Shown here: positions 38,833-55,200 of the stretch, one piece after another
Layout of the letters: the number at the start of each line of letters is the position of its first letter
Numbering within the stretch: the stretch's first letter is position 1
Assembly: GCA_000972765.1 (NCBI GenBank)
Contig: CP011265.1
Coordinates: 1,550,001-1,614,000 of the forward strand
Origin: Verrucomicrobia bacterium IMCC26134
GTDB lineage: Bacteria > Verrucomicrobiota > Verrucomicrobiia > Opitutales > Opitutaceae
Direction of reading: 5' to 3'
DNA: 64,000 nucleotides
Translations under genes and position numbers: made by a program
Notes under the pieces: model-generated
What the model was told of the DNA's origin: nothing
The model's input: only the letters and a program-made list of their open reading frames with translations
The model's database searches: none

Positions 38833-40316
38833 ACGCTTTCTTCGCACTCACCACTGGGAGCGCGGCGGAGGTTTTTCCCCGTTCGTTGAGCTCGTATCTC
38901 GAGATAGACAACGGAACTCTCTGGGCCGTGTTGTCTGCCCGCGTGCAGGCCGAGCCATTTAATCTCGTGGCCACGGGTATTTTCCTGCTGGCGATCGTGC
39001 ACACGTTTTTCGCGGGGAAAATCCGGCATTGGGGGCATGTGATCGAAGAGCGCCATGCGTCCGCTTTACGGCAGGCGGCGCTCATCGGCGCCCCGGGTGA
39101 AACGAGTGTGGGCCCTGTTGCTGATGACGGTTCGCCACAAGAGGTCAGCTTTTGGGGGCAGGTGCTGCACTTTTTTGGCGAGATTGAAGTCGTTTTCGGA
39201 CTTTGGGCCCTTGTGCTCGGCGTAGCGATCGCGGTTCACGCGGGCATGTCGACGGCGATCGCTTATCTCTCGGGAGTAAACTACACCGAGCCCCTCTTCG
39301 TGGTGGTCATCATGGCGATGGCGGCGACGCGTCCGGTGGTGCGCTTGGCCGAGGCGGGTTTGAAACGAGTGGCGGCACTGGGAGGTGGCACTCCGTTCGC
39401 ATGGTGGGCTGCCCTGCTGGTGCTGGCTCCAGTATTGGGGTCGTTCATCACCGAACCGGCGGCGATGACGCTGGGCGCGCTGCTGCTGGGGCGGCAATTT
39501 TACGCCTACAATCCCAGCCAGAAGCTCCGCTACGCCACGCTTGGATTGTTGTTCGTGAATATATCCGTGGGGGGCACGCTTACACACTTCGCCGCTCCGC
39601 CGGTCTTGATGGTGGCGGGGCCTTGGGGCTGGGGGTTTGGGCACATGCTGATTAATTTTGGATGGAAGGCGCTGGTGGGCATCGTTGTGGCGACTTTCCT
39701 CTATGGTTACTATTTCCGTATAGAACTGCGTTCGCTCGCCGCCCAGCCCCGCAGCGGTGGGGTTGAATCCGACGGAGGCGCGGCGCCGGTTCCGGCATGG
39801 GTCGTCGCGGCGCATCTCGGGTTTCTCGCCTGGACGGTGTGGGCGGCGCATTATCCGGTGCTGTTTATCGGCGGATTCCTGTTCTTTGTCGGATTCCTGC
39901 AGGCGACTGCGCAGCATCAGACGAAACTGGATCTGCGCGGTCCGGTTTTGGTAGGGTTTTTCCTGGCTGGACTGGTCGTTCACGGCGGACTGCAAGGATG
40001 GTGGATAGCGCCGGTGCTTTCCGGGCTCGCGCCAGCCGCGTTGTTTTGGGGCGCGACCTTGCTGACGGCGTTCAATGACAACGCTGCCATCACTTATCTG
40101 GCGACCCTTGTGCCGAATTTTTCTGATGCTGCGAAATATGCAGTTGTGGCGGGTGCGGTCGCAGGTGGCGGCCTCACCGTGATCGCCAACGCGCCGAACC
40201 CGGCCGGCCTGTCGATTCTGCAACGTTTTTTTCCGGGAGGTTTTTCGCCACTTAAACTGGCTCTGGCTGCCCTGGTGCCGACGCTTGTGATGGCGGCGTG
40301 TTTTCTGGTGCTTTAG
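38829..40316 (+). CDS. Putative Na+/H+ antiporter (PF07399-type)
   Basis: A 495-residue polytopic membrane protein with about 11 hydrophobic segments. The N-terminal half has FNLVATGIFLLAIVHTFFAGKI, FFGEIEVVFGLWALVLGVAIAV and GSFITEPAAMTLGALLLGRQFYAYNPS. The last is the ITEPAAMT motif of the putative Na+/H+ antiporter family known from Chlamydia and Verrucomicrobia. A second inverted-repeat-like motif occurs as LLTAFNDNAAITYLATLVP. A role in ion homeostasis is predicted from the family. It is coupled to the phosphatase by an ATGA overlap and overlaps the convergent SBF-like gene by 4 bases. Confidence 0.85.
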   Translation: MNAFFALTTGSAAEVFPRSLSSYLEIDNGTLWAVLSARVQAEPFNLVATGIFLLAIVHTFFAGKIRHWGHVIEERHASALRQAALIGAPGETSVGPVADDGSPQEVSFWGQVLHFFGEIEVVFGLWALVLGVAIAVHAGMSTAIAYLSGVNYTEPLFVVVIMAMAATRPVVRLAEAGLKRVAALGGGTPFAWWAALLVLAPVLGSFITEPAAMTLGALLLGRQFYAYNPSQKLRYATLGLLFVNISVGGTLTHFAAPPVLMVAGPWGWGFGHMLINFGWKALVGIVVATFLYGYYFRIELRSLAAQPRSGGVESDGGAAPVPAWVVAAHLGFLAWTVWAAHYPVLFIGGFLFFVGFLQATAQHQTKLDLRGPVLVGFFLAGLVVHGGLQGWWIAPVLSGLAPAALFWGATLLTAFNDNAAITYLATLVPNFSDAAKYAVVAGAVAGGGLTVIANAPNPAGLSILQRFFPGGFSPLKLALAALVPTLVMAACFLVL

Positions 40317-41275
40317 CGTCTGGCCCAGCGACCGGCCAGCACGCCGCAGATGACGAGTTGCATCGGGTGGTAAATCATCAGCGGCAGCAGGATCAGGCCG
40401 AGGCGGGGGTCGCTGCCGAAGATGAGCTGTGCCATCGGCACGCCCGAGGCGATAGTCTTCTTGGATCCGCAAAATACGGCGGCGATGCGGTCTTCGTCTG
40501 AGAACTTAAGTGCGCGACAGACTGCGGTCAGAATTGCAAAGACCACCGCAAACAGCAACAAGCCTCCCGCAAGAGCTGCGAACACCGTGCGCACTCCCTG
40601 GCCCGACCAGACGCCTCGGACGATGGAATCGCAAAATGAGGTGTAGATAATGAAGAGGATGGTGCCGCGATCCACGAGGAAGACTTTCGCTTTGTGGCGC
40701 TTTACCCAGTCGGCGATGAAGGGACGGCTGAGCTGTCCAAGCAAGAGCGGCAATATCAGCCAGATCACGAGATCGAGAATCACCCTGCCGAGTGAGAGCG
40801 TGTGGGCGCCTTGGCTATTGACCATCCAGCCGATCCAGATGGGGGTGAGGAATACGCCGAGCAGGCTGGACAGGGTGGCGTTGAAGACCGCCGCCGGCAC
40901 GTTGCCCCTGGCCGCCGAGGTCATGGCGACCGACGAGGAGACGGTCGAGGGCAGGGCGCAAAGGAAAAAAAAGCCCAGTGCCAGCGCAGGGGAGATCAGG
41001 CCGCCGGCGATCAGAAGCAGGCCCAGGCCCAGCAGGGGAAACAGCAGATAGGTCGCGCTCTGCACGACCAGATGGAGCGGCCAGCGCAGCGCCCCGGCTT
41101 TGAGCGAAGCGAAGGAGAGCGCGGCACCGTTAAGGAAAAAAATCAGTGCGACGCCCGCTTTGTTGACCAGGTCGGGGTGAAGCGGACCGTTTTTTGCGCC
41201 GAGTTGCGGGTAGGCCCAAGCGACGCCCACCACCGCGATCATGCCGATAAGAAACCAGTCGAGTTTGAGGCGCAT
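40313..41275 (-). CDS. SBF-like (bile acid:sodium symporter fold) membrane transporter
   Basis: A 320-residue protein with nine or ten membrane helices, of the SBF-like/SLC10A7 type (PF13593). Landmarks are MRLKLDWFLIGMIAVVGVAWAYPQLGAK, GVALIFFLNGAALSFASLKAG, FFFLCALPSTVSSSVAMTSAARGNVPAAVFNATLSSLLGVF and FCGSKKTIASGVPMAQLIFG. The last two are the characteristic crossover motifs. The substrate is unknown. It is the distal gene of the leftward set beginning at 45.3 kb, 13 bp after the FAH-family gene. It could import a substrate of that pathway or be unrelated. Confidence 0.88.
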   Translation of the reverse strand: MRLKLDWFLIGMIAVVGVAWAYPQLGAKNGPLHPDLVNKAGVALIFFLNGAALSFASLKAGALRWPLHLVVQSATYLLFPLLGLGLLLIAGGLISPALALGFFFLCALPSTVSSSVAMTSAARGNVPAAVFNATLSSLLGVFLTPIWIGWMVNSQGAHTLSLGRVILDLVIWLILPLLLGQLSRPFIADWVKRHKAKVFLVDRGTILFIIYTSFCDSIVRGVWSGQGVRTVFAALAGGLLLFAVVFAILTAVCRALKFSDEDRIAAVFCGSKKTIASGVPMAQLIFGSDPRLGLILLPLMIYHPMQLVICGVLAGRWARR

Positions 41276-41288
41276 CGATTTTTGTTTT

Positions 41289-42155
41289 TTAGACCGTCGT
41301 TCCCGCGCTGGCGGTGCAAGCTTGGTTAGTTATGGCGTGGGGTTGATCGTTGGATTGTGGTTCCTCGACTACGGTGTTTGTCAGCACACCGAGGTGCTCG
41401 ATCTCGACGCTGATGGTGTCGCCCGCTTTCAAATACACCGGTGGCTTTAGCGAGTGGCCCACGCCGTCGGGTGTGCCGGTGAGAATGACTGTTCCGGGCA
41501 GAAGGGTTTTGCTGGCGCTCAAAAACTCGATGAGTGCGGGAACGTCGAAGAGCATGTCTCGCGTGTTTCCATCCTGTCGCAACACGCCGTTGACCGTCGT
41601 GCGCAAGCGGAGTGAAGCGGGGGCGGGGAGTTCGTCCTTGGTGAGCAAGAACGGGCCGAGCGGACAAAAGGTGTCGAAGCTCTTGCCCTGGCAAAACTGA
41701 CCGCCTCCGAGTTTAAACTGCCAGTCGCGAGCCGAGATGTCGTTGGCGATCAGGTAGCCGAAGACGTGGTCGAGGGCGTTTTCGCGAGTGGCGTTTTTGC
41801 AGGTTTTTCCAATGACCACGGCGAGCTCACCCTCGTAGTCCACCGCGTCGCTGGCGAGCGTGCGCGGCAACTCAATGACGCCTCCGGGGTTTTGAACGGT
41901 GTTCAGGCTCTTGAGGAAGAGCAGCGGACGGTTAAGAACTTCACGGCCGAGTTCTTCGGCGTGTTTGCGGTAGTTGAGGCCGATACCGAGTATCGTGGAC
42001 GGCTCCAGCGGCGCGAGCAGGGGGCCGGGCTTGATCGTCACCTCGGTGAGGCGAAGGCCATCAAATAGCTCTCCGGTTGTGGCACGGGCGGTGCCGTCCG
42101 GTTGGAGCACGGCGTAGGCGGGCCCCGAGGCGCTCAGATGGCGTATGATTTTCAT
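41289..42155 (-). CDS. Fumarylacetoacetate hydrolase (FAH) family protein
   Basis: A 288-residue metal-dependent enzyme of the FAH superfamily, which includes hydrolases, decarboxylases and isomerases of beta-diketo acids. Metal ligands are in DYEGELAVVIGKTCKN (E-x-E type, about 128-135) and NDISARDWQFKLGGGQFCQGKSFDTFCPLGPFL. The C-terminus has LPGTVILTGTPDGVGHSLKPPVYLKAGDTISVEIEHLGVLTN. The exact substrate cannot be set. It lies 151 bp downstream of ridA on the same strand and probably belongs with the amidase genes. Its presence suggests the pathway yields a carbonyl acid. Confidence 0.92.
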   Translation of the reverse strand: MKIIRHLSASGPAYAVLQPDGTARATTGELFDGLRLTEVTIKPGPLLAPLEPSTILGIGLNYRKHAEELGREVLNRPLLFLKSLNTVQNPGGVIELPRTLASDAVDYEGELAVVIGKTCKNATRENALDHVFGYLIANDISARDWQFKLGGGQFCQGKSFDTFCPLGPFLLTKDELPAPASLRLRTTVNGVLRQDGNTRDMLFDVPALIEFLSASKTLLPGTVILTGTPDGVGHSLKPPVYLKAGDTISVEIEHLGVLTNTVVEEPQSNDQPHAITNQACTASAGTTV

Positions 42156-42306
42156 AAAGGAGTCGTTGTCAGATGCTGCGCAGTGCGTGGGCTTAGGGTT
42201 GCCGCTGCTGCTTGCACGCGTCGCGCCGCATGCACCGGGTCGAGGGCGCGCCAGCCGGCATTGGTGAGGGGGGAGCTTGCATTCGCGTTGGGTGGTCGCG
42301 ACGCAA

Positions 42307-42774
42307 CTAGGAGTTGAAGCTCACGGTGACTTGGATTTCGACGGTCGCGCCGCGCGGAAGGCCGGCGACAGCGATGGCGGCACGGGCGTGTTTTCCGGCG
42401 TCGCCGTAGAGCTTTACGAAGAGGTCGCTCGCACCGTTGATGACCTGAGGACTTTCGGTGAAGCCGGCCACGGCGTTGACGTAGCCGGCGAGGTAAACGA
42501 ACTCGCGAACCCGATCGAGGCTGCCCAGCGCGTCTTTGATGGCGGCAAGGCTGTTGAGCGCGCAAACTTGGGCGGCGGCGTAGCCTTCCTCGACGGTGCG
42601 ATCACCGCCGACCTGGCCGGCGTGGGTGAGCACACCATTGTGTATGCTGATAACGCCGGCGAGCACGAGGGTGTCACCGTTTATTCGATAGGGGACGTAG
42701 TTGCCTCCGGCGGAAGGTGCGTAGGGTAGCGCAAGACCGAGGCCCGCGAGTTTGGTTTCGATGGAGTTGCTCAT
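42307..42774 (-). CDS. RidA family protein (YjgF/YER057c/UK114)
   Basis: A 155-residue member of the RidA superfamily, probably of the YjgH/Rid-like subgroup with an N-terminal ETKLAGLGLALPYAPSAGGNYVPY. TLVLAGVISIHNG, AAQVCALNSLAAIKDALGSLDRVREFVYLAGYVNA and the C-terminal ARAAIAVAGLPRGATVEIQVTVSF are visible. The last contains the conserved Arg (AxxAIAVxGLPRGA), which binds the substrate carboxylate. Family members hydrolyse reactive enamines or imines, or aid ring-opening pathways such as pyrimidine (Rut) and aminophenol breakdown. It is coupled to the amidase gene (ATGA overlap). Confidence 0.92.
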   Translation of the reverse strand: MSNSIETKLAGLGLALPYAPSAGGNYVPYRINGDTLVLAGVISIHNGVLTHAGQVGGDRTVEEGYAAAQVCALNSLAAIKDALGSLDRVREFVYLAGYVNAVAGFTESPQVINGASDLFVKLYGDAGKHARAAIAVAGLPRGATVEIQVTVSFNS

Positions 42775-43706
42775 ACGCGGTCGAAAATCGCTTCAGGGAG
42801 GTAGGCAGTGATGGTAGTGGTAGGCACGTTGACGAGTTGGCTGACTTTGAGGTCGAGCACCACACTGCACAAGGTGTAGGCCATCGCCGGTGTGACTCCG
42901 AGCCGGTCCACGATGAACGCGATGGCGCGGCGCACGGCGCGTTTGCAGGCCTCGCGGGGGTTTTCATCGGACTCGATGAACAGGTGCCACGGTTTGCTTG
43001 CATAGCGCGCTGGAGTGAAGCCACCGGGGAAAATCGCGTAGGGTCCGGCGAGTGGCTTTTGTTTGCGCAGGTTAAAGGTCAACGTGACGTCCATCGGTGC
43101 CTCCATGCCGTTGATGCACACTTCGCCGTCGCCTTGGGCGGCGTGGCAATCGCCGGTGAGCACACCTGCGCCCTGGGTGAAAACGGGTAGGTGCAGGGTG
43201 GTGCCGGCGGTCAGGTGGCGCACGTCGAGATTGCCGCCGAAAGCACCGGGCGCGCGGGTGCGGAACTCGCCGGCCTCGGCACGTTGCACGCCGATGATGC
43301 CGGCGAAGGGGTGGAGATCGAGGGTTACCCCCGGAAAGCTGCGGGTATGGGCCTCGTCGAGTTTCCAGATGAAGAGATGGTTTTCGGGGAAATCCTCGGG
43401 CAGGAGACCCAGTCCGGGTATGAGGCTTGTCCACGCCCAACCGTGGTGTTGGTAGGCCTCGATTTTGATTTCCAGGATATCGCCGGGCTCCGCGCCATCT
43501 ATGGCGACCGGGCCTGTTAGGGCGTGGACTTGAAGCGGATCGAAGCGGGCTTTGAAGTCTGCCGCGGTCCAATCCGGTCGGACCTGCCAGCCGCTCGAGT
43601 CGGCGCATTTGAAGGTCACGGTGTCGCCGGGTGCGACCGTGAGGCGGGGCGGGGTGGCGTGGTTCCAACGATGGACCATCGGTTCTGGGCTAAGCGTGTG
43701 GTGCAT
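42771..43706 (-). CDS. Acetamidase/formamidase family protein
   Basis: A 311-residue amidase of the FmdA/AmdA family, which hydrolyses formamide or acetamide to ammonia and the acid. MHHTLSPEPMVHRWNHATPPRLTVAPGDTVTFKCADSSGWQ is the family N-terminus, used for the start at 43706; ATGs at 43727 and 43808 are alternatives. DGAEPGDILEIKIEAYQHHGWAW, GNLDVRHLTAGTTLHLPVFTQGAGVLTGDCHAAQGDGEVC (the conserved Asp/His/Glu core) and LIESDENP-like FIESDENPREA follow. It sits between a creatininase gene and ridA. Formamide released by a deformylase step would be a fitting substrate (inference). Confidence 0.92.
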   Translation of the reverse strand: MHHTLSPEPMVHRWNHATPPRLTVAPGDTVTFKCADSSGWQVRPDWTAADFKARFDPLQVHALTGPVAIDGAEPGDILEIKIEAYQHHGWAWTSLIPGLGLLPEDFPENHLFIWKLDEAHTRSFPGVTLDLHPFAGIIGVQRAEAGEFRTRAPGAFGGNLDVRHLTAGTTLHLPVFTQGAGVLTGDCHAAQGDGEVCINGMEAPMDVTLTFNLRKQKPLAGPYAIFPGGFTPARYASKPWHLFIESDENPREACKRAVRRAIAFIVDRLGVTPAMAYTLCSVVLDLKVSQLVNVPTTTITAYLPEAIFDRV

Positions 43707-43723
43707 GGCAAAAGCGGGTATTA

Positions 43724-44539
43724 TCATTCCGTGGTCGCGCGCCGGCGGCCTTCGTTGTGGCGGTGAATAATGTCGGCGGTCATGCCGGTGGAAATCAAAT
43801 CCAGCCACTGCGCGCCTTTTTCAGCGCTTGCAGCCGTCGCGTCGCCCATAATGCCGGTAGGAGAAATATCCTGCGAGGCCCATGAGTAGGTGGCCGGTGC
43901 ATTCTCCGGCCTCAGCTCCCCGGGGTCCCCGATGAAGGAGGGGTAATGACACACGGCAGCTTTCATCCGGGTGTGAGCCGGTGCAGCGGCCAGGAGCAGG
44001 GAGGTTTCAACTTCGTTGGCGTGAAAACCGTAAGCGGATTCCTGCGGAGAAACATCAATCTTTGCGTCTGATTTGATCGGGCTGATACGAAGCCCGGAAG
44101 GTCCGTAAAGTGCGCGGATTTCACGCAGGGTGTAGTTTATGACGGCTGAATTTCCGCCGTGGGTGTTCAGGACTACAAGTTCCTTAAAGCCCCACTCATG
44201 AAGCTGGCGGGCGATGGCCACTAATTGCAGTCTGAGTGTGGTCTTGCTGATATAGAGCGTGCCGGGGAAACCGACGTGTTCGTTGCTTTTGCCGATCGTG
44301 ATGGGCGGGGCGACGTAGCAGGAAACACCGGCAGGCAGGCGAGCCAGCAGGAGGTTCAACCAGACTTGCCCCAACAATGAATCCACCGCGACCGGAAGAT
44401 GCGGGCCGTGTTGCTCAATGGCACCCGTTGCGATGATGACCGGCGCCCATTTCCTGTCGGGCAGGGCAGTGATCTGCGCTGCTGACATGGCCGGTAGATA
44501 ACGTGCGCGATAAGTGGGAAATGTTTCGGAAATACTCAT
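43724..44539 (-). CDS. Creatininase-family amidohydrolase (metal ligands intact)
   Basis: A 271-residue protein of the creatininase/creatinine amidohydrolase superfamily (PF02633), which also contains the archaeal FAPy-nucleotide deformylase ArfB and the mycofactocin protein MftE. The metal site is complete: IIATGAIEQHGPHLPVAVDS (E-x-H and D), NTHGGNSAVI (H) and HANEVETSLLLAA (E). IGKSNEHVGFPGTLYIS is also typical. It is a probable zinc- or manganese-dependent amidohydrolase; the substrate is unknown. It overlaps the upstream paralog by four bases (ATGA). Confidence 0.92.
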   Translation of the reverse strand: MSISETFPTYRARYLPAMSAAQITALPDRKWAPVIIATGAIEQHGPHLPVAVDSLLGQVWLNLLLARLPAGVSCYVAPPITIGKSNEHVGFPGTLYISKTTLRLQLVAIARQLHEWGFKELVVLNTHGGNSAVINYTLREIRALYGPSGLRISPIKSDAKIDVSPQESAYGFHANEVETSLLLAAAPAHTRMKAAVCHYPSFIGDPGELRPENAPATYSWASQDISPTGIMGDATAASAEKGAQWLDLISTGMTADIIHRHNEGRRRATTE

Positions 44540-45306
44540 GATGCGGACATGGTGAGAAGTTCACCATCGCGGGGCAGTGCAGGACGGGCGTTGATTTCGA
44601 CCAACAGCGCAGCGAGGCGCGCGGATGACTTGGCCAGGAGCTCAATTCCTGCGTTGCAGGCCACCGCCAGACCCAGGGGAGGCTCGGCCAAGGGTATGAC
44701 ATCTTCTTCTCCGGGAAGTGCGGACGATTTCGAGGCGGGGGCTTCGCTTTTGACCAAGGTCGGTTCCTTGCCGGTGAGTGCGGTGATAAGGGTCTGCAAA
44801 GCATGCCGGTTACGGCTGCGGGCCGGGTGGAAGTCGAGGTCGATGGCGCTTAGGTTGATGCAAAATGTCTGTAGTCTGCGCTCGATGCGGATATCGCGTG
44901 CGGCGGCGTCTATCAGCTCCTCGTTCCATGGGCTGGCGTTGAACAACACGACCCGTCGAAATCCTGCCGCCGCTATTGTGGAGCAGACTTCATCGATGAA
45001 GGCGTGAGCGGTCGGCACATCCACGGTGAATGCGCAGCCGGCATTCGCGCCTATTACGAAACGCAGCGGTGGAACGACGAGCATCCGCGTCGGATCTGAC
45101 TGGCGGGAGGCGTCGGCAAGAACCCGCATCAAAACGGTTTCTTCAGCGTCGAGGGCGTGGCCCAGTCCCGAGTCGGCGAATCCGGCGATGGGCACGACCA
45201 CGGTGATGTTTTTTTTATCTTTGAGACGCGAAAAATCCTCCCATGTGAGCCAGGGCCAGAAAGTTTTTTCATCCACCTGACAAAGTTGCGCGAGTGTTTC
45301 AGGCAT
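44536..45306 (-). CDS. Creatininase-like paralog lacking the metal ligands
   Basis: A 256-residue protein with the creatininase fold pattern: WPWLTWEDFSRLKDKKNITVVVPIAG, PPLRFVIGANAG, HAFIDEVCSTIAAAGFRRVVLFNASPWNEELI. The metal-binding E-x-H is replaced by FADSGLGHALDAEE, and NTHGGNS by NASPWNE. It is thus probably non-catalytic and may form a hetero-oligomer with the intact copy next to it (ATGA overlap). It is first in the leftward operon, facing the AraC gene across the long intergenic region. Family assignment is by fold-pattern and context and so less certain than for its neighbour. Confidence 0.75.
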   Translation of the reverse strand: MPETLAQLCQVDEKTFWPWLTWEDFSRLKDKKNITVVVPIAGFADSGLGHALDAEETVLMRVLADASRQSDPTRMLVVPPLRFVIGANAGCAFTVDVPTAHAFIDEVCSTIAAAGFRRVVLFNASPWNEELIDAAARDIRIERRLQTFCINLSAIDLDFHPARSRNRHALQTLITALTGKEPTLVKSEAPASKSSALPGEEDVIPLAEPPLGLAVACNAGIELLAKSSARLAALLVEINARPALPRDGELLTMSAS

Positions 45307-45835
45307 ATCGGGTTTGAGTGATGGTAGTTCTTATTCAGGCGCTGCGTGTTTCCGAGATGTAAACGATCTTAGCAGATTGGAAGCCAAGCCTAGGGTGATG
45401 GCAAAGTCGTCCCGTGCTGGCCTACCGGCAGGCATTACCGGATTGGTTAATCAACGTTGTCATGCCTGATGTCGCATTTAGCGGTCGTTGATCGGCAAAA
45501 GATTATCATAGCCCAGATTTTGAAACACCTGCACGGATCTGGCATCTGTCTCGGATCATCTATTTATTATCTGCGTATTTAATATAAGGCTCGGATTTCC
45601 GTATGGAAGCAGGATGGCGGATGGTTTTTATGCATGTTTATATAAAGAAGAATGTAAGGGATTGAGTTAGGTTGTTTTCAGTATTATTTTAAACTGAGGT
45701 TTTATTCTCATTTTTATTGGCTTCACGAAGCGGAACCAAGGTAAAAAATGAACCTTTCCGCGGTATTATCTGTTTTGGCCTCCAAGTTGCTTAGGTTTAG
45801 TGTCCAGAGAAACGCCTTTCCATTGCTTCGCTTCC
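45307..45835. promoter_or_regulatory. Divergent, AT-rich intergenic control region
   Basis: About 530 bp separate the creatininase-like gene (minus) from the AraC-family gene (plus). The DNA is clearly richer in A and T than flanking genes, especially 45540-45730. This is the natural site for back-to-back promoters and AraC binding. I could not define a confident -35/-10 pair or operator by eye. Confidence 0.6.
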
Positions 45836-46735
45836 ATGTCTTTTGCTTCTTTTGTTCAATACGGTCTAGCCTCTTACGCCGAGATTAGTTATCAGCAGTC
45901 CGGCCACTACAGCGTATTTCCCTACCGGGCCGAAGGTGACGGTGTGCATGACAGGCAAGTGCCGCACCGGCATGATTTTTATCAACTTATATGGCTGACT
46001 GAGGGAAGCGGTGATCTCATTTGTGACCTTAAAGAATGGCGCTTTACTGCTGGCACACTCTTTTTTGCCGCACCCGGTCGTTTACATTGTTGGAAGCCTG
46101 AGACGCCGGTCCGGGGGTTCGCGTTAGGTTTTACAGACGAATTTCTATGCAGGGACTCCATTAGAGCCTCGCTGCTTGGTCGATTTGCTTATTTACAGGA
46201 ATCTGAAAATCCATTGCTCACCTTAACAGGTGCCAAGCAGGATGAGATGACGCATTTTTTCTCGCGGTTGCTAGCTGAAGCTGCGGATACAGAGTCTTCT
46301 CGCGATGAAGTAGTTCATGCCTATATCATGATTATTTTGGCCAAGACTAAACGCTGGTTGCCGGGAGATGCACAAAGTCAGATTTCTAAGCGCGCGCTCA
46401 ACTCTTTGTCCATACGCTTTCGGCAGGCGCTGGAAGAGCAATTTCCTCGCCTGCTTAAGGTCAGTGATTATGCATCCCTTTTGCATACCTCACGCACACA
46501 ACTGAACAACGACCTGCGTAACCATACCGGGCGGACGGCGAGCGAATTCATACATGATCGTCTGCTTCTCGAGGCCAAACGCCTTTTGCTATACTCGGAT
46601 TCCACTGTATCTGAAATCGCATATAAATTAAGATTTCAGGATCCTTCATATTTTTGCCGTTTCTTTCGTTTACGGGCCGGACTTTCGCCTGGAGCATTCC
46701 GAGCGGGTGCAGCGATCCAGCTTGTCGCTTGTTAG
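45836..46735 (+). CDS. AraC-family transcriptional regulator
   Basis: A 299-residue DNA-binding regulator. The N-terminal cupin sensor includes QVPHRHDFYQLIWLTEGSGDLICDLKEW and FAAPGRLHCWKPE (about 40-95). The C-terminal double helix-turn-helix is LLKVSDYASLLHTSRTQLNNDLRNHTGRTASEFIHDRLLLEAKRLL then STVSEIAYKLRFQDPSYFCRFFRLRAGLSPGAFR. The start at 45836 (MSFASFVQYG) is chosen over an ATG 12 codons earlier. By position it most likely controls the divergent amidase operon and the downstream DUF3891-permease-cyclohydrolase genes. Base composition is lower in GC than the rest of the window. Confidence 0.93.
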   Translation: MSFASFVQYGLASYAEISYQQSGHYSVFPYRAEGDGVHDRQVPHRHDFYQLIWLTEGSGDLICDLKEWRFTAGTLFFAAPGRLHCWKPETPVRGFALGFTDEFLCRDSIRASLLGRFAYLQESENPLLTLTGAKQDEMTHFFSRLLAEAADTESSRDEVVHAYIMIILAKTKRWLPGDAQSQISKRALNSLSIRFRQALEEQFPRLLKVSDYASLLHTSRTQLNNDLRNHTGRTASEFIHDRLLLEAKRLLLYSDSTVSEIAYKLRFQDPSYFCRFFRLRAGLSPGAFRAGAAIQLVAC

Positions 46736-46755
46736 GTCGTGACCTTACAAGCGAC
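46724..46755 (+). terminator. Long inverted repeat at the end of the AraC gene
   Basis: GTCGCTTGTTAGGTC and GACCTTACAAGCGAC form a 15-bp stem with one mismatch around a GT loop, and include the araC stop codon. There is no T-run after it (CAAATTATTA), so it is either a weak terminator or an operator-like site before the DUF3891 gene. Confidence 0.55.
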
Positions 46756-46806
46756 CAAATTATTAATGACTGACTCAGTTCATTTACACAATTAATCCAA
46801 TAAATT

Positions 46807-47616
46807 ATGATACGACGTGAAACATCAACGCACTGGGTATTTGTGACTCATCCGGATCACGCGCGTCTGGCCGGACAATTCGGAGATGCCTGGGGCAATG
46901 AGAATTTCGCCCGCCCAGAGCCGTATACTGGCCTTAAATACGCCGTGTATCATCATGACGATGGATGGCTCGCCCGCGACGCCGCCCCGTCGCTCACCCC
47001 CGCCGGATTGCCTGAGGCGTTCACGAGCTCCTTGGTGGGCGCGTATAGTGCGTTTGAAGAAATTGATCTGCCTGCCTATCTGGGGGTGCGAGCAAAGGCC
47101 ACCTCCACGGTTGCGGAAGTCGATCCATATGCGGGCATCTTGGTGTCTATGCACACGTATAATCTGCTTTCCGAGCAGGCGGACCTGAATAGTATTCGGC
47201 CCGAACATCGCGCTGCGCACGCCGCATTTCTGCTTGAGCAGAAGGAGTTTCAGAGCACCACCGCGGCACGTCTCGGGGCTTCCAGCCATGCTTTGCAGGT
47301 CGGCTATGAATTTTTGCAATGCTGCGATAATCTCTCGCTGATCGTATGCTCGGGCTACGATCAGGCACGGGATCTTCGGCATACGCATTCGGATCGGCGG
47401 GGTGTTCGCCATGCCATACACTGCGAACCGGCTGGGAGCGGGTGTTATACACTTTCGCCATGGCCCTTGTCCGGCGTTAAGCTCGTCCTGGATTTACCTT
47501 ATCGCATGGTGGCAAAAACCGAGGCCAAGAACTTGGAATCTCTACGCCACGCATTCAGCGTGGCTCCTGTTTTGGTCGATAAAGTCACCTTGCTGCCTGC
47601 GGCGGGTGTTGTTTGA
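46807..47616 (+). CDS. DUF3891 family protein
   Basis: A 269-residue cytoplasmic protein of the DUF3891 (PF13030) type. Recognisable features are WVFVTHPDHARLAGQFGDAWGN, the YAVYHHDDGWLARDAAPSL motif with the paired His-Asp, ILVSMHTYNLLS and FLQCCDNLSLIVC. The conserved His/Asp pattern resembles an HD-like metal site, but no activity is established as far as I know. It stands between the AraC regulator and the NCS2 permease and so is probably part of the same pathway. Confidence 0.88.
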   Translation: MIRRETSTHWVFVTHPDHARLAGQFGDAWGNENFARPEPYTGLKYAVYHHDDGWLARDAAPSLTPAGLPEAFTSSLVGAYSAFEEIDLPAYLGVRAKATSTVAEVDPYAGILVSMHTYNLLSEQADLNSIRPEHRAAHAAFLLEQKEFQSTTAARLGASSHALQVGYEFLQCCDNLSLIVCSGYDQARDLRHTHSDRRGVRHAIHCEPAGSGCYTLSPWPLSGVKLVLDLPYRMVAKTEAKNLESLRHAFSVAPVLVDKVTLLPAAGVV

Positions 47617-47664
47617 TCTGAGCAAGTTGAGCCGCATTCCGTTTCAATTTTAACTTAATCCCTT

Positions 47665-49050
47665 ATGCTGCAACGTATTTTTAAACTCTCCGAACATCGC
47701 ACGACTGTCAGTCGTGAGCTCTTTGCCGGCCTGGCTACATTTGCGGCCATGGCCTATATTCTCGCGGTGAATCCCAGCATTTTGATGAATGGGCTTGGTG
47801 CAGATTCGGCCATTGGCTCAGATCCGACCACCGCCGCTTTTATCGCAACTAAAGGCGCTCTCGTGACGGTCACGGCGATTACCGCGGCCGTGAGCACGAT
47901 CTTGATGGCGCTCATGACGAATTACCCGATCGCGCTCGCGCCCGGCATGGGAATAAATGCGTTTTTTGCTTTCAGTATTTGCCTCGGGGCGGGGGTGCGC
48001 TGGCAGGAGGCGCTTGGTATGGTCTTCCTAAACGGATGTATTTTTTTGCTCCTCTCGCTGACCGGGGTTCGCGAAAAAATCGTCAAATGCATCCCTTATC
48101 CGCTGAAGATCGCCATCACCTGCGGCATTGGCATTTTCATCGCGTTTATCGGGCTTAAAAACTCGGGTATAATTGTTTCGAACCCAGTTACTTTCGTTTC
48201 CCCTGGAGATTTTACCCAAGGGCCTGTCGCCCTCGCTTTGGGCGGAGTTGTTTTGGTCCTGGTGTTGGTCGCCCGTCGCGTTCCGGGGGCCATCGTGATT
48301 GGCATAGTGGGAACAACGCTGGCGGGGTTATTCGTTCCTGATGGTCATGGAGGCCAAGTCACGCGCCTCCCTGAATCGATTTTCGCGCTTCCAGCTTCGC
48401 CGGCACCGGTATTTCTTAAATTAGAGTTCGGTTTCATGACCAGCACGGCGACGTTCTTTAAAATACTTCCTTTGCTGCTGACCCTGCTATTGGTCGATAT
48501 GTTCGACAACATAGGCACGCTTATTGGCGTTACCAAGCGTGCGGGTTTCCTTGATAAAAATGGCAATTTGCCCAAGGCGGGGAGAGCGCTTGTGGCGGAC
48601 TCCACCGCCGCCATTCTCAGCTCGCTCTTTGGCACCTCCACGGTGGTCAGCTATATCGAAAGCGCGTCTGGAGTGGAGGCCGGGGGGCGGACCGGTCTGA
48701 CCGCAGTCTCCACTGCCGTGCTCATGTTGCTGGCTTTGTTCCTGACGCCTTTGATTCTGATCGTGCCCCTTGCCGCCACCGCCTCGGCGCTCGTTGTGGT
48801 GGGGGTATTTATGCTTCAGTCGGTGACGGAGATTGATATGAGCGATTTCCGCATCGCCGCCCCCGCGGCACTCACCATCATAGGTATACCGCTCACCTTC
48901 AGCATCGCGGAAGGCATTGGCTTCGGTCTTATTTCAGCTGCGTTGCTCGCCCTTGCCACCGGTAAGCCTCGCGGTTTTACTGCAACTGGTTATGTAATCG
49001 CCGCTATTTTCTTTTTGGAGTTTTTCCATATCTTCCCATTCAGCGGTTAA
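47665..49050 (+). CDS. NCS2-family purine/nucleobase permease (AzgA/PbuG type)
   Basis: A 461-residue inner-membrane symporter with about 13 helices. Landmarks are ELFAGLATFAAMAYILAVNPSIL at the N-terminus, the family motif NYPIALAPGMGINAFFAF, GIFIAFIGLKNSGIIV, LLLVDMFDNIGTLIGVTKRAG, and ADSTAAILSSLFGTSTVVSYIESASGVEAGGRTGLTAV. These fit the hypoxanthine/guanine/adenine permease subgroup. It suggests the cluster's substrate is a purine or related ring compound. It is preceded by the DUF3891 gene and followed by the cyclohydrolase at 14 bp. Confidence 0.95.
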   Translation: MLQRIFKLSEHRTTVSRELFAGLATFAAMAYILAVNPSILMNGLGADSAIGSDPTTAAFIATKGALVTVTAITAAVSTILMALMTNYPIALAPGMGINAFFAFSICLGAGVRWQEALGMVFLNGCIFLLLSLTGVREKIVKCIPYPLKIAITCGIGIFIAFIGLKNSGIIVSNPVTFVSPGDFTQGPVALALGGVVLVLVLVARRVPGAIVIGIVGTTLAGLFVPDGHGGQVTRLPESIFALPASPAPVFLKLEFGFMTSTATFFKILPLLLTLLLVDMFDNIGTLIGVTKRAGFLDKNGNLPKAGRALVADSTAAILSSLFGTSTVVSYIESASGVEAGGRTGLTAVSTAVLMLLALFLTPLILIVPLAATASALVVVGVFMLQSVTEIDMSDFRIAAPAALTIIGIPLTFSIAEGIGFGLISAALLALATGKPRGFTATGYVIAAIFFLEFFHIFPFSG

Positions 49051-49064
49051 TTTCGACGCCTTAA

Positions 49065-50654
49065 ATGCCTACTTCTGTTTCTCCCCTTAAAGTTCCTGAC
49101 GAGGCCGCGCTCGATATAGATTTCGAAGCTCTTATCGCCGAGTTACAACACGCAACCGGTGCCGTGGTCGCACCTCGGCCCGTGGATGATCGTCCGCTCT
49201 ATGGCACCACGCTTTACATTGCGACCTGCAAGCTCGACACCCGCTTCGGTCATTTCCGTGCACATATCTTTCAGGATATCATCGATAAGCACTACATCAT
49301 CGCGCTTGCTTTTGGTGATATTGTAAACGCGACCACGCTCCATACCCGGCTGCACTCTTCTTGTGTGACCAGCGAGACTTTGAGGGGCTGTGATTGCGAT
49401 TGTGTGCAGCAGCTCGAGGGAGCCTTCAAGGTGATCGCCGAGAAAGGGAAAGGCATACTTTTTTATCTGATGCAGGAGGGGCGCGGTGTGGGCTACGTTG
49501 GCAAGGCCAGGGATCGTATGCTGGTGCAGGCTTCGCTTGATCAACTCTCCACCTTTGCCGCCTACGCTGCGATGGGGCTCAAAAAAGACCACCGCAACTA
49601 TGAGAACATATCCCATATTTGCTACCTGCTCGGCATCACCGCGTCATTCACCGTTCTGACCAACAATCCAGATAAGGTCGACGCCATGAAGGCACAGGGA
49701 CTGGTGGTTGCCGGGACCGAGGCGCTCGAGTTCGAACCTTCCCCTTTTAATCTCGCCTACCTGACATCCAAAGCAGCTGGAGGACATATTCTGCTTCGGC
49801 CTTCCGAAACGCTCGTGAAGCGCGCGCTCCCGCCTGAGCCGGTTATTCCCTTCAAGCCTTACGCGCTTCCCGAAGCTCGTCGCTTCATCTATTCGGCCAG
49901 TTATTTTCTTCCGATGAAGCCGGTGGATAACGACATCCTGCTCACTGGCGTCCAGTTTAACGACTTGTTCAAACATGACGCGCTCAGTCGTTATTCCGCT
50001 GGTCCGCACCCGCTGGTGCTTGGCTATCACGCCATCCGCGACAACCGGTTTTTCGTAAAGATTTCCGTCGATAATCTCAACTACTTCAAACGCGATAATC
50101 CCGAGGATCCCATCCTCGATCTCCTTACCACCCCTTATTGGTTTCGCGTTCACGTTTACTACGACATCGTGACCTCGCAGGACTTTGTGGTGCTCACCCA
50201 TGGCAAGCCCCGCATCTATGATCTGCCCGTGGTTCGCCTCCACAGTGAATCCCTCTTTAATCGCTTCCCGCTGCGCACGGTCGAGAACCGCGACAAGATG
50301 AAGCAGTCCGTCAAACACATCGTCACCTACGGCGTAGGTGCCATGCTCCTGCTACATAACGACGGACGTGGCGCCGGTTTCGGTGCATACGCAACCGATC
50401 GTATGATGACCGAAACCAACCAGGCTTTCTCTTCCGACGAGGCTTATCGTAAACTTGGCGTCGGTTACGACAGTCGAGACTACGATTCGTCCATCCTGCT
50501 GCTTCGTCACCACATTCCCAACGAGAAGATCCAGATGGTGATGAACTCTCCTGCCAGCCTGGTTAAAAAGCCCGAGTATGCCGAAGCCTTGAATCGCCAT
50601 AAAATTGACGTCGAGAAATGGATATTCCTCGAAGACGAGCCCGGCCATGATTGA
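49065..50654 (+). CDS. Tandem GTP cyclohydrolase II-like protein
   Basis: A 529-residue protein with two GTP cyclohydrolase II domains. Domain 1 (about 40-225) keeps all three zinc Cys, in LHSSCVTSETL and RGCDCDCVQQL, and the QEGRGVG loop. At the place of the catalytic Tyr (KIRAYALQD in E. coli RibA, Tyr105) it has KARDRMLVQ, that is Arg. Domain 2 (about 270-520) has the same order of elements, including LHSESLFNRF, HNDGRGAGFG and a DYDSSILLL region, but lacks the zinc Cys. It is therefore a paralog rather than a riboflavin-pathway RibA. The family precedent is the FAPy-forming Streptomyces paralogs with an altered Tyr. It is adjacent to the nucleobase permease. Confidence 0.85.
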   Translation: MPTSVSPLKVPDEAALDIDFEALIAELQHATGAVVAPRPVDDRPLYGTTLYIATCKLDTRFGHFRAHIFQDIIDKHYIIALAFGDIVNATTLHTRLHSSCVTSETLRGCDCDCVQQLEGAFKVIAEKGKGILFYLMQEGRGVGYVGKARDRMLVQASLDQLSTFAAYAAMGLKKDHRNYENISHICYLLGITASFTVLTNNPDKVDAMKAQGLVVAGTEALEFEPSPFNLAYLTSKAAGGHILLRPSETLVKRALPPEPVIPFKPYALPEARRFIYSASYFLPMKPVDNDILLTGVQFNDLFKHDALSRYSAGPHPLVLGYHAIRDNRFFVKISVDNLNYFKRDNPEDPILDLLTTPYWFRVHVYYDIVTSQDFVVLTHGKPRIYDLPVVRLHSESLFNRFPLRTVENRDKMKQSVKHIVTYGVGAMLLLHNDGRGAGFGAYATDRMMTETNQAFSSDEAYRKLGVGYDSRDYDSSILLLRHHIPNEKIQMVMNSPASLVKKPEYAEALNRHKIDVEKWIFLEDEPGHD

Positions 50655-50702
50655 TGCTTTGCGGGTCGCGATTTCATCGCGTCCTGTCTTCGATATTCCT
50701 TT

Positions 50703-51794
50703 GTGTCCTCCAAAACTACCAGCCCCTCAGTCATTACCGATGATCCGCTCGGTCACGGGCTACTGGCCCGTAGGCTCGGGCAGATACCCTCGGTCCTAGC
50801 TGGGATGATTGAGCGCGGCCCCGCCGCACTTAAACCCGCTACGCTTAACGCCCGTCGATTTATTATCACCGGCACGGGAAGCTCGGAGGCGCATGCACGC
50901 TATCTGGCGATGCTGCTGAATTTATACACCGACCGCGCCGCCACTTACCTGCCGTTGTCGGGCTTCGTTGACTGGCATCGCGACGCTTTTGCCGGAAAAA
51001 CCCTGGTCGTCTTTTCCCAAGGCGTTTCTCCCAACGCTCAGATCGCTCTCAATCGTCGGCAGGATTTCGCGCACTGCGTGCTTTTGACCGCCACTACTCC
51101 GGCCGCCGCACTCGCGGCTGGTAAACGAGACCGTGCCGCTCTTCTCCAATCCATTATCGATGCAGGGGGGGAGCTCATCGAGTTCCCGCTCGCGGAGGAA
51201 TACACCACCCTCATTCGTTTCGTAGGGCCTCTGGCCGGTTATTTAGCCGCACTCCAGTTTACTTCCCAGCTCGCCGGATGCCGCTTCCCCGCGCCCGGCG
51301 CCGCCACCATTCTGCCCTTACTCGCAGAACCAGCGCCGGCCGACCTCTTGGACGCGATGATTCGGCTGCCCAGTGCCTTTTCGCAGGGCTTTAACATCGT
51401 CACCGCCGCTCCTATCTCTGACTTTGCGCAAAACCTTGCCTGTAAATTCATGGAAGGCGTCTTCTGGCCATGCCCGCCGATTTCGGATTTTCTACAATTT
51501 GCCCATGGTCCTTTTCAGCAGATGAACGCTCATCCCAAGCCGGTCATCATTCTGCAAGGAGACTCCGCTGCCGAGGCTGACCTTGTCGACCGCAGCGTGC
51601 GTATGTTACGCGAAGTGGGTCTCAGCGCTTTTGTTGTTCGCGTGAATGCGCCGCCATTATATTCGATCTTTGGCTTCGAAGCCGCCCTTAACGCCCTCGT
51701 CTTCGCGGTCATGCGCCACCTTCGGGTTGACCAAGTGAACTGGCCTGGGAAAGGTCGCGACGATCTTCTCTATGGCTTTTGTCCTGATTCGTGA
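50703..51794 (+). CDS. SIS-domain sugar-phosphate-binding protein
   Basis: A 363-residue protein with two sugar-isomerase-like (SIS) domains, as in the isomerase half of GlmS and in AgaS/FrlB. Domain 1: RRFIITGTGSSEAHARYLAMLL and GKTLVVFSQGVSPNAQIALNR. Domain 2: QNLACKFMEGVFWPCPPISDFLQFAHGPFQQM and VIILQGDSAAEADLVDRSVRML. It lacks a glutaminase domain. It starts with GTG at 50703, 48 bp after the cyclohydrolase gene, and no nearer ATG suits. A role in handling a ribosyl- or amino-sugar phosphate from the pathway is plausible but inferred. Confidence 0.82.
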   Translation: MSSKTTSPSVITDDPLGHGLLARRLGQIPSVLAGMIERGPAALKPATLNARRFIITGTGSSEAHARYLAMLLNLYTDRAATYLPLSGFVDWHRDAFAGKTLVVFSQGVSPNAQIALNRRQDFAHCVLLTATTPAAALAAGKRDRAALLQSIIDAGGELIEFPLAEEYTTLIRFVGPLAGYLAALQFTSQLAGCRFPAPGAATILPLLAEPAPADLLDAMIRLPSAFSQGFNIVTAAPISDFAQNLACKFMEGVFWPCPPISDFLQFAHGPFQQMNAHPKPVIILQGDSAAEADLVDRSVRMLREVGLSAFVVRVNAPPLYSIFGFEAALNALVFAVMRHLRVDQVNWPGKGRDDLLYGFCPDS

Positions 51795-52208: not shown

Positions 52209-55200
52209 ATGAGGTATAAAAGTCTACATGTATGGCTTTCGTTGGTGGTCGTGATTCTCTTGCTTGGCGTGGGAAGCAGTTGGTTCATGTTCACGCGATT
52301 GGCGCATGAACGGACCGTCTCGCGAGATGATCTTTTCAATAGGATTCAGGCGCTGGCGGTTTTAACCCGGAATAATACACGGACTGGGGCCGAGTCTCAT
52401 GTTGGGGCCGTGTTTCGCGAATGGGTTAGCCTTTATCCTGACGTTACCAATCTACGGTTTCAGGCACCCGGTGGATTGGTTTTATACGACTATAAACGAG
52501 ATACGGAAGCGCTGGAGCCTTACGCCCTCGCTATTCCGCTTGAATATGGCATCGGGGGACAGGCAACGATCTCGGTTATCACAGACGTCTCGAAATGGAC
52601 GGATGCTCGCAATCTTCAGTTCGTTCAATTTGGCGTCTTGCTGGCGCTCTTTTCCACTCTGCTTGTCGTTCTTACTCGAATACTTTTGATCTATCGGGTC
52701 GAATGTAATCGCAGCGCGAAACGCAGCGATCAGCTTTGTGAATTGAACACCATCTTGCGTAAAAACGAGGGAAGGCTTCAGGTTTATGTAGAGCAGTTCC
52801 CCGATGCGTTATTTGTGCACGACCTTTCAGGTCGATTTATTGATGTAAATCGTCAGGCTTGTATAAGCCTTGGATATACGCGCGAGGAGTTACTGCAAAA
52901 GGGGATCGCCGATATCGAAACCGATCAGGAGATCGACCAGATTTGGGACGCGTTGCGTCTGTTACAGCCAGCCGAGTCGCGGTTACTCATGGGCAGGCAG
53001 CGACGTAAAGACGGGACTTTGTTTCCAGTTGAGGTGCGGGTGGTTCGCGTCGATCGCGATGGCCAAGCCCTATTCATCGGTCTGGCCCGCGACATCTCCC
53101 TGCGTAAAAAAACAGAGAAGGAACTGGAAATGATGCGTTACAGTGTGGATAGCGCGGGCGATAGCATATTCTGGATTAGCCCTACGGGCGATATACGCTA
53201 TGTGAACGATTCGGCCTGTTGCGGGCGCGGCTATGCAAGAGAGGAATTGCTTGCGATGAAGATTTTCGATTTGGATCCGGACGCGAAACCGGAGGCTTGG
53301 TTGCTACATTTTGAAAGGATTAAAACGACAGGTAGCATGACATTCGAGGCCCGTCATAGAACCAAAGACGGGCGCATTTACCCCGTAGAGGTCAACGCAA
53401 GCCACGTTCGTATAGCCGGCAAGGAGTTCAATTTCTCAACGGTCCGCGACATCACCGCCCGTAAAAAATCGGAAGCTGCTCTGCGCGACAGCGAGGCGCT
53501 TTTTCGCACCGTGCTTGAATCGGTCGCCTTGATCGGACTCATGCTCGACCGTGAGGGGCGTATTACCCTTTGTAGCGATCATCTTTTAAGTATTACCGGT
53601 TGGAAACGTGAGGAGGTGATAGGTCGCGATTGGTTCAGCACTTTTTTACCTTCGGACCAGACGGAACTCATTCGTAAAGATGTTTTTATTCGTGGTATTA
53701 AAAGCGGGGAGCTATCCAGGTGCTACGAAAATGAGATCGTCACGCGCGCAGGAGAACGACGGCTTGTCTCCTGGAGTAACTGTCTGATGCGCGGCGAGTC
53801 CGGTGAGATTGTCGGCTTGGCCAGTCTGGGCCACGACATAACCGAACGCAAACAGGCCGAGCAGGCTTTGCGCGCGAGTGAGGCGCGGTATCGTCGGGTC
53901 GAGTTGGGCACCGCCGACGGTCTCTGGGAGTGGCACATTCCCAGTGGCAAGGAATACTGTTCGCCACGGTGGATGGAAATGCTTGGTTATTCCGCCGATA
54001 CTCCACCGCTCGATTTCGGTGGCTTCATCGAACTGGTTCATCCGGAAGACCGGGCCTACATATTGGCTTCGGCGGAAACCAGTATTCGCGATGCCAAGCC
54101 CTACAATGTGGAGATGCGCTTACGTCGTAAAGAGGGCGACTACTTATGGGTTTTATCGCGGGCCAAGGTGGATTACGACGAGGCGGGCAAGCCGCTGTCC
54201 ATGACAGGATCAATCTCTGATTTAACCGCGACACGACAGCTTGCCCAGCAGTTGCGCCAATCTCAAAAGCTCGAGGCGATCGGCACTTTAGCAGGCGGCA
54301 TAGCACATGATTTCAACAACATCCTGACCGGCATCTACGGGTTCACTACGTTGGCCCGCATGTCTGCTGAAAATAATACGCAGACCACCGGTTATCTCGA
54401 TGAGATAGCCCGTGCCGGTCGTCGCGCGGCAGATTTGGTGCAGCGGATTCTGGCCTTCAGTCAGACTCGCGGCGGCGACGAAAGCATGGAAGCGGTGCGG
54501 CTTGATGAACTCCTTGCGGAGGTGGTTAAGCTTTTGTCGTCAGCCACGCCCAGCACGATCACGATTATTTCTCATACGGCATCGGGTCTTCCCGCTGTGA
54601 GAGGTAATTCGGCGCAGCTACACCAGATCCTGATGAATCTCGGCACCAATGCGGTGCAGGCAATGGGCGACCGATCGGGGCGGCTGACTTTCAACCTCGA
54701 TACTTATCAGGTTGATGAACATCGCGCCCGTTCGCTTCTAGGCCTCGCCGCCGGTCCTTGTTTACGACTCTCGGTCAGCGATACGGGTAGCGGCATGACT
54801 GCCGCGATTCAAGAGCGTGTGTTCGAACCGTTTTTTACGACCAAGGAACCCGGTCAAGGCACCGGGCTCGGATTGTCCGTGGTGCACGGCATTGTGCAAA
54901 GTCACCGCGGCGGCATCAGCCTCAGGAGCGAAGTCGATGTCGGCACCACTTTCGAAATTTATCTACCCGCGATAAACGCCGCGCCGGCGGTCCGCTCCGC
55001 TTTGCCATTCAATATGCCAGTCGGCCATGGCGAGTGCATTCTTATGGTGGATGATGAACCGGCGGTTATTAAAACTGGCAAGCTGGCACTCGAGCTTCTT
55101 GGTTATACAGTAATTATTGAAAATCAGCCACTAAAGGCATTGGCTTATTTCGAGGAAAACCCGCAGGTCTTCGCCCTGGCCCTTCTGGACCAGACCATGC

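Follow-up and report, generated by a model that had tools for sequence, protein, structure and literature searches.

The segment at positions 40313–51794 of the window (the 64,000 nt stretch of Verrucomicrobia bacterium IMCC26134 analyzed here, CP011265.1 positions 1,550,001–1,614,000, forward strand, to which all coordinates refer) probably encodes the core of a nucleotide-level purine catabolic pathway, in which the imidazole ring would be opened by GCH2, a tandem paralogue of GTP cyclohydrolase II (GCHII). Two divergent operons lie on either side of an AT-rich region: the minus-strand operon comprises two creatininase-family genes, one of them degenerate, together with FmdA, RidA, FAH and an SBF-like transporter, and the plus-strand operon comprises an AraC-family regulator, DUF3891, an AzgA-type NCS2 permease, the tandem GCH2 and a SIS protein. 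Each gene named in the initial annotation was found in its place, with its frame open. The AT-rich divergent control region proposed between the two halves (45307–45799, no strand assigned) is evident as a drop in GC content to 32–39% at 45500–45750, against about 60% over most of the window. A search of this region against Rfam matched no family, and RNA-based control was rejected on those grounds; a promoter and terminator scan yielded a signal no higher than that of shuffled sequence. The adjoining AraC-family regulator (45800–46735, plus strand; PF12833, PF02311) has HpaA as its nearest NCBIfam model, at 124 bits, under the cut-off of 274.

The case for the two halves forming one pathway is strong, and it comes from a phyletic survey of 189 related genomes, in which GCH2, SIS, DUF3891, FmdA and CrnA1 share one common pattern. 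All five genes occur together in 15 genomes, with individual totals of 16 for GCH2, 15 for SIS, 15 for DUF3891 and 17 for FmdA. CrnA1 is present in every GCH2 genome (16/16), GCH2 is present in 15 of the 17 FmdA genomes, and DUF3891 is found in exactly the 15 genomes that carry both GCH2 and FmdA, which are also those carrying SIS; one genome (G016) that has GCH2 without SIS, FmdA or DUF3891 counts against the pattern. This co-inheritance is far above chance (Fisher p 1e-19 to 1e-21; 1e-10 to 1e-12 at genus level), and partly phylogenetic, the genomes being related. In most genomes a long chromosomal distance separates the halves, and their co-inheritance despite being mostly unlinked therefore argues for functional coupling rather than synteny. 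Cerasicoccus and a second genome (G224) carry the halves as a single contiguous cluster, and single-cluster or near-single-cluster forms are seen at loci L101, L109, L114, L040 and L033. The initial annotation had treated the halves as one system and had named their failure to co-occur elsewhere as the result that would undo the idea; they do co-occur, and the idea survived. Two unrelated operons were also considered, and rejected in view of the common phyletic pattern.

There is good reason to link this system to purine breakdown. The NCS2 family permease (47665–49050, plus strand; PF00860, 134 bits), which from its sequence we take to be of the AzgA (purine) type, is the immediate same-strand neighbor of GCH2 in 19 loci, and purine genes are found within 8 kb of GCH2 in 41 of 80 loci, a recurrence that bears out the purine setting first proposed. 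About half of the GCH2 loci have no purine gene within that distance, many of them on short contigs, which counts against the link. GCH2, SIS and a phosphoribosyltransferase (PRT) occur together in 14 loci. In the host genome, the PRT adjoins a PbuX-type permease, and the AmH1 deaminase lies within a TonB/adenine deaminase/nucleosidase/NUP cluster; the absence of PRT and AmH1 from some GCH2 genomes weighs on the other side. Classical purine catabolism through xanthine dehydrogenase, urate and allantoin would start from the same presumed inputs (hypoxanthine, xanthine, guanine and adenine), but strong matches to the xanthine dehydrogenase molybdenum-binding domain (PF20256, E<1e-40) were found in 0 of 16 GCH2 genomes, against 46 of 173 others (p 0.014), three of the 16 having only weaker, split-domain matches, and the opening proposed here would instead be hydrolytic and at nucleotide level.

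The same neighborhood bears on a different reading, in which the ring opened by the cyclohydrolase paralogue is that of a pyrimidine nucleotide, in a URC-like breakdown of uracil or other pyrimidines (URC1/urg1, UPRT, DUF1688). GCH2 scores only 18.7 of 403 bits against the PRK07198 model (NF005536), which covers URC1, and falls outside that family; the linked phosphoribosyltransferase is nearest to HPRT/HGXPRT and not UPRT-like, and the linked genes include adenosine and adenine deaminases and purine permeases. DUF1688 (URC4) was matched in 0 of 20 genomes, in a search run without a positive control. In its favor, both systems would have recruited a GCHII paralogue and a phosphoribosyltransferase to nucleobase use, NCS2 permeases and RidA also serve pyrimidine use, and S. 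pombe has a uracil-induced GCHII-family gene, urg1, in a cluster with UPRT-like and DUF1688 genes (PMC2174524). On balance, uracil breakdown is less likely than purine breakdown, and we consider it rather unlikely.

GCH2 itself (49065–50654, plus strand; PF00925 in two stretches) consists of two halves that are homologous to each other (hhalign 98.4%, E 5e-15), with zinc cysteines in the first alone, in agreement with the altered, tandem cyclohydrolase described at the outset. Residue mapping indicates that half 1 retains the catalytic residues: C54, C65, C67, D126 and R128 (E. coli numbering) are conserved in 73 of 73 GCH2 sequences, in this half only, so that the protein carries the zinc cysteines, D126 and R128 that define the GTP cyclohydrolase II family. 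It scores 136.8 bits against the riboflavin RibA model TIGR00505, below the equivalog cut-off of 205.85, and does not keep Y105. The role proposed for R128 in GCHII is attack on the GTP alpha-phosphate with release of pyrophosphate; its retention in GCH2 fits a triphosphate substrate better than XMP, a point against the proposed route. Searches on plasmids returned only partial RibA-like matches. The fixed changes of GCH2 (Y105 always to R, H89 to L, F69 to Q), its degenerate yet conserved half 2 and the GCH2 genomes devoid of PRT would also suit a purine-linked ring opening in which GCH2 acts on something other than a common purine nucleotide, for example a pterin, a nucleotide carrying damage or a modification, or some other heterocycle. 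Given the strong purine-scavenging context and the HPRT-like phosphoribosyltransferase adjoining GCH2-SIS, such a substrate seems unlikely. GCH2 and a BrbF/ArfB-like creatininase might instead serve a variant branch of riboflavin (or deazaflavin-like) biosynthesis. This would be consistent with the intact GCHII residues of half 1 and with the role of BrbF as a bacterial creatininase-family formamidase in riboflavin synthesis (PMC9478397), but it is improbable: no further riboflavin gene was recognized in the clusters, GCH2 is missing from 173 of the 189 related genomes, and it is accompanied by permeases, amidases, FmdA, SIS, FAH and genes for purine scavenging.

Two creatininase-family proteins and a formamidase-type amidase had been predicted on the minus strand, and all three were recovered, with one of the creatininases weak and degenerate. 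CrnA1 (43724–44539, minus strand; PF02633, 197.7 bits) is a metallohydrolase with a conserved metal motif (AIEQHG...VD, NTHGGN); the superfamily pattern, E-x-H ... D plus NxHGGN, is shared by CrnA1 and its orthologues and not by the neighboring CrnA2 (44536–45306, minus strand; PF02633, 46 bits), in which it is gone (GFADSG, NASPWN). The pair recurs at other loci (L033, L104, L114, L137). The presence of two such genes could point to the use of creatinine or creatine alone, with unrelated neighbors. However, CrnA1 reaches 75.4 of 235 bits against the creatininase equivalog model and 110 of 172 against MftE, both far below cut-off, and just 37–38 bits against solved creatininases; CrnA2 lacks the metal motif and the two halves are co-inherited. 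Creatinine use was accordingly rejected and is barely credible. FmdA (42771–43808, minus strand; PF03069, 171 bits), whose true start is probably near 43679, is an acetamidase/formamidase-family hydrolase matching the PDB acetamidase 2f4l (E 1e-34).

The SIS protein (50703–51794, plus strand) gave no match in a Pfam search, and its identity is borne out by an AlphaFold model (pLDDT 91) that resembles double-SIS enzymes of the aminosugar-phosphate isomerase/deglycase fold (Foldseek E ~1e-11). The matches, which include the GlmS isomerase domain (E 9e-12), NagB-II and the FraB deglycase, are full-length (TM 0.6–0.7), with two SIS domains per chain. The likeness to FraB-type deglycases and to the NagB-II/GlmS double-SIS enzymes extends to the fold (E 1e-9 to 1e-12), but identity is only about 10–18% and the substrate is presumably a pentose-phosphate amine. 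A search for SIS on plasmids found none. DUF3891 (46807–47616, plus strand; PF13030, 182 bits) has invariant residues H15, H18, H50, D51, D52 and H116, and may tentatively be regarded as an HD-like hydrolase: its structure model (pLDDT 89) shows only weak HD-domain matches (VIA Z 5–7 to several HD domains; no Foldseek match with E <1). The VIA list is headed by helical 14-3-3 rows, which were treated as noise. Because copies also occur on archaeal and Bacillota plasmids in unrelated contexts, DUF3891 by itself is not diagnostic.

We infer the substrate, the step order and every single reaction of the pathway. Adenosine deaminase, nucleosidases and adenine deaminase would convert purine nucleosides and bases outside the cell or at entry, AzgA/PbuX-type permeases would bring purines in, and the HPRT-like phosphoribosyltransferase would form the nucleotide. 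GCH2 could then act on XMP, GMP or GTP, hydrolyzing the imidazole ring to yield a ribosylaminopyrimidine phosphate, possibly still N-formylated. CrnA1 or FmdA might deformylate this product, a step that ArfB/BrbF perform in the making of riboflavin; for the GCHII intermediate, deformylation by a creatininase-family enzyme has been established in the case of BrbF and is reported in that of ArfB (PMC9478397). The SIS enzyme, whose modeled deglycase/isomerase-like fold is counted in support of sugar-phosphate release, would split the pyrimidine amine from its pentose phosphate. CrnA1, FmdA, an amidase, RidA and FAH would then open the aminopyrimidine and strip it, leaving ammonia, formate, CO2 and a small acid, and the putative HD-like hydrolase DUF3891 would act at some point along the route. 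By analogy with the riboflavin pair, with which GCH2 shares the zinc cysteines, D126 and R128, a creatininase-family partner could deformylate (PMC9478397), but here the context is catabolic and linked to purine uptake, the enzyme is tandem with a degenerate half 2 and Y105 changed to R, and the module has SIS, FmdA and DUF3891 in addition.

As far as tested, creatinine use, URC and riboflavin synthesis do not match the cluster, in keeping with the original failure to match it to a described pathway, and no account of a module like this turned up in a search of open-access papers. It is conceivable, if short of an even prospect, that it represents a further bacterial breakdown of the purine skeleton, hydrolytic, molybdenum-free, urate-free and at nucleotide level, which a GCHII paralogue starts and creatininase, FmdA, SIS and DUF3891 finish, with recovery of ribose phosphate. 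A riboflavin-type enzyme would then have gained a catabolic use on purines, DUF3891 would acquire a testable role (its first metabolic one), as would a creatininase/FmdA subfamily, and the five genes would provide a tight marker set for a nitrogen-scavenging route in the Verrucomicrobiota. Purine catabolism in bacteria is usually recognized by its xanthine dehydrogenase and urate genes, and by that measure carriers of the module would score as non-users.

RidA had also been advanced as a clue to the pathway. The gene, of the YjgF_endoribonc subfamily, is present (42307–42774, minus strand; PF14588, 98 bits) and overlaps FmdA by 4 bp, but it is not specific evidence, since both RidA and its accompanying amidase are widespread without GCH2 as well. 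The amidase query also matches related amidases and that of RidA is likewise non-discriminating, so neither was counted as core. In GCH2-negative genomes, amidase, RidA, Amidohydro_2 and an ABC transporter make up a separate purine-associated locus; the genes conserved around the amidase-RidA locus have housekeeping functions or encode an Nramp transporter, and were rejected as pathway members. The FAH-family hydrolase/decarboxylase (41289–42155, minus strand; PF01557, 241 bits) has its closest solved relatives among enzymes acting on acylpyruvates or 2,4-diketo acids, and in Cerasicoccus (L101, 12439–14532) it forms a fusion with an amidase. At the left edge, and absent from the initial list of genes, the minus-strand operon ends with an SBF-like (DUF4137) transporter (40313–41275, minus strand; PF13593, 348.8 bits), which also adjoins FmdA or GCH2 at three other loci (L109, L121, L030).

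The locus at 40313-51794 is arranged as two divergent operons around a 493-bp AT-rich control region (45307-45799; GC 32-39% in its middle). On the minus strand, the left operon encodes two creatininase-family proteins, an acetamidase/formamidase-family protein, RidA, FAH and an SBF-like transporter (CrnA2-CrnA1-FmdA-RidA-FAH-SBF), with 4-bp overlaps at CrnA2/CrnA1 and FmdA/RidA; on the plus strand, the right operon (AraC-DUF3891-NCS2-GCH2-SIS) includes a tandem GTP cyclohydrolase II paralogue, GCH2, and a double-SIS protein. The cluster recognized in the initial annotation stands, and Pfam bears out all the families named there except SIS, which it missed and a structure model recovered. The host genome is a single 4.0 Mb contig, of which the window covers 1,550,001-1,614,000, and the nearest public relatives of the window are labelled Opitutaceae, Verrucomicrobiota. 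Between 44001 and 54000 the GC content is lower (0.51-0.55 versus about 0.61 for most of the window); this stretch, which extends over the right operon with its control region and into the next gene, for a PAS histidine kinase (52209-55406), is possibly a recent acquisition.

The ring-opening purine route proposed in the initial annotation presupposed that the two halves of the cluster co-occur elsewhere. Each protein was used as query against a single set of 189 class-level genomes, in which the halves proved co-inherited, and the idea survives this test. GCH2 is present in 16 genomes, SIS and DUF3891 in 15 each, FmdA in 17 and CrnA1 in 20, including all 16 with GCH2; the five occur together in 15, to which SIS and DUF3891 are confined. 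GCH2 is associated with FmdA (Fisher p 3.5e-19; genus-collapsed 1.4e-10), DUF3891 (2.6e-21; 2.6e-12) and CrnA1 (7e-20; 2.6e-11). Within genera, the set is present in G224 and wholly absent from the congeneric G160, and present in G086 and G099 but not in the congeneric G138. FmdA and GCH2 are widely separated in most genomes (4.34 versus 4.01 Mb in G018; 0.41 versus 1.14 Mb in G034), and their link is thus functional. In Cerasicoccus (locus L101) and G224 (L109) the halves are united in a single cluster, GCH2-SIS-FAH-amidase-deaminase-unknown-CrnA1 (with SBF added in L109), facing RidA-DUF3891-FmdA, and in Cerasicoccus maritimus FAH and the amidase are fused in one 697-codon reading frame (L101 12439-14532). 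That the module is one unit is close to certain. Ereboglobus-type bacteria (L126, L086, L093) retain NCS2-GCH2, and one of them (G016, L126) has a creatininase without SIS, FmdA or DUF3891; gene content suggests a reduced or repurposed version.

GCH2 (529 aa) consists of two GCHII-like halves (98.4% probability, E 5e-15, hhalign). In E. coli RibA numbering, the first half keeps C54, C65, C67, E92, R94, K101, R103, D126 and R128 in all 73 relatives, every one of which has arginine at the Y105 position; H89 is replaced by leucine and F69 by glutamine in 97% of them. The second half has lost the cysteines and retains an aligned D..R pair. The protein scores under the RibA cut-off (136.8 versus 205.85 bits) and falls essentially outside PRK07198 (18.7 of 403 bits), which we take to be the URC1 type. 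A Streptomyces coelicolor GCHII paralogue with this tyrosine replaced reportedly ends its reaction at the N-formyl product, so that a separate deformylase would be needed. G093 carries its main GCH2 copy at C1:219948-221495, listed with one TGA, and a fragmented second copy (C1:483286-484124) near a second RidA gene.

Among the remaining enzymes, the SIS model (pLDDT 91) best matches the GlmS isomerase domain, NagB-II and FraB deglycase (E 1e-9 to 1e-12), enzymes whose reactions on aminosugar phosphates are isomerisation, deamination or deglycation. The nearest solved relatives of FmdA are acetamidases/formamidases. The metal motif is intact in CrnA1 and lost from CrnA2 (44536-45306). Such a degenerate homologue has been kept immediately next to the intact one in several lineages (the window, L033, L104, L114 and L137/L138), and CrnA2 is probably a non-catalytic partner. 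DUF3891 (model pLDDT 89; invariant H15, H18, H50, D51, D52 and H116) gives weak structural matches, to HD domains only, and is tentatively an HD-like hydrolase.

At least one purine gene lies within 8 kb of GCH2 in 41 of 80 loci (public contigs and the window), a raw count with no random-locus background rate. These genes encode AzgA-type permease (24), adenosine deaminase (16), purine nucleoside permease (12), HPRT-like phosphoribosyltransferase (PRTase; 12), adenine deaminase (8), nucleosidase (5) and PbuX-type permease (3). GCH2, SIS and PRTase are co-located in 14 loci, and the closest relatives of the linked PRTase are hypoxanthine-guanine(-xanthine) PRTases. The module likely serves purine catabolism. 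Pieces missing from the window are present elsewhere in its genome: the deaminase AmH1 (C1:1132364-1133581, in a TonB-adenine deaminase-AmH1-nucleosidase-purine nucleoside permease cluster), a PRTase (C1:1416385-1416933) adjoining a PbuX-type permease, and a second FAH with amidase (near C1:3573779-3575871). Genome group f46 has no AmH1. Its CrnA1-DUF3891 cluster (L076/L141/L144), to which an ABC transporter also belongs, encodes a cytidine-deaminase-fold enzyme that may be a non-orthologous replacement, along with an S15-type hydrolase and a GlcD-like FAD protein.

In the scheme we propose, a base would be imported and made into a nucleotide PRPP-dependently, GCH2 would open the imidazole ring, and CrnA1 or FmdA would take off formate on the model of ArfB and BrbF, which remove it from a GTP-derived intermediate (PMC9478397). 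SIS would then free the pentose phosphate, an AmH1-type enzyme would deaminate the aminopyrimidine, CrnA1, FmdA and the amidase would open it, RidA would remove an enamine nitrogen and FAH would split the residual keto acid. We infer this particular sequence of reactions, which is unproven, and its weak point is the substrate. In view of the GCHII mechanism, the conserved R128 suggests pyrophosphate chemistry; GCH2 may therefore act on GTP rather than XMP, in which case the PRTase would do no more than supply the pool. A search of open-access papers found no description of such a module.

Of the 189 genomes, 46 give a strong match (E below 1e-40) to the xanthine dehydrogenase molybdenum domain, and no GCH2 genome is among them (0/16; p 0.014); within the window's family alone the figures are 0/7 with GCH2 versus 7/13 without (p 0.044). 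Weaker split-domain matches in three GCH2 genomes may represent other molybdenum hydroxylases. Opitutaceae that lack GCH2 have another, distinct locus with a purine association (L151-L158); it comprises an amidase, RidA, an Amidohydro_2 protein and an NMT1-type ABC transporter, joined in some by NCS2, adenosine deaminase or adenine deaminase.
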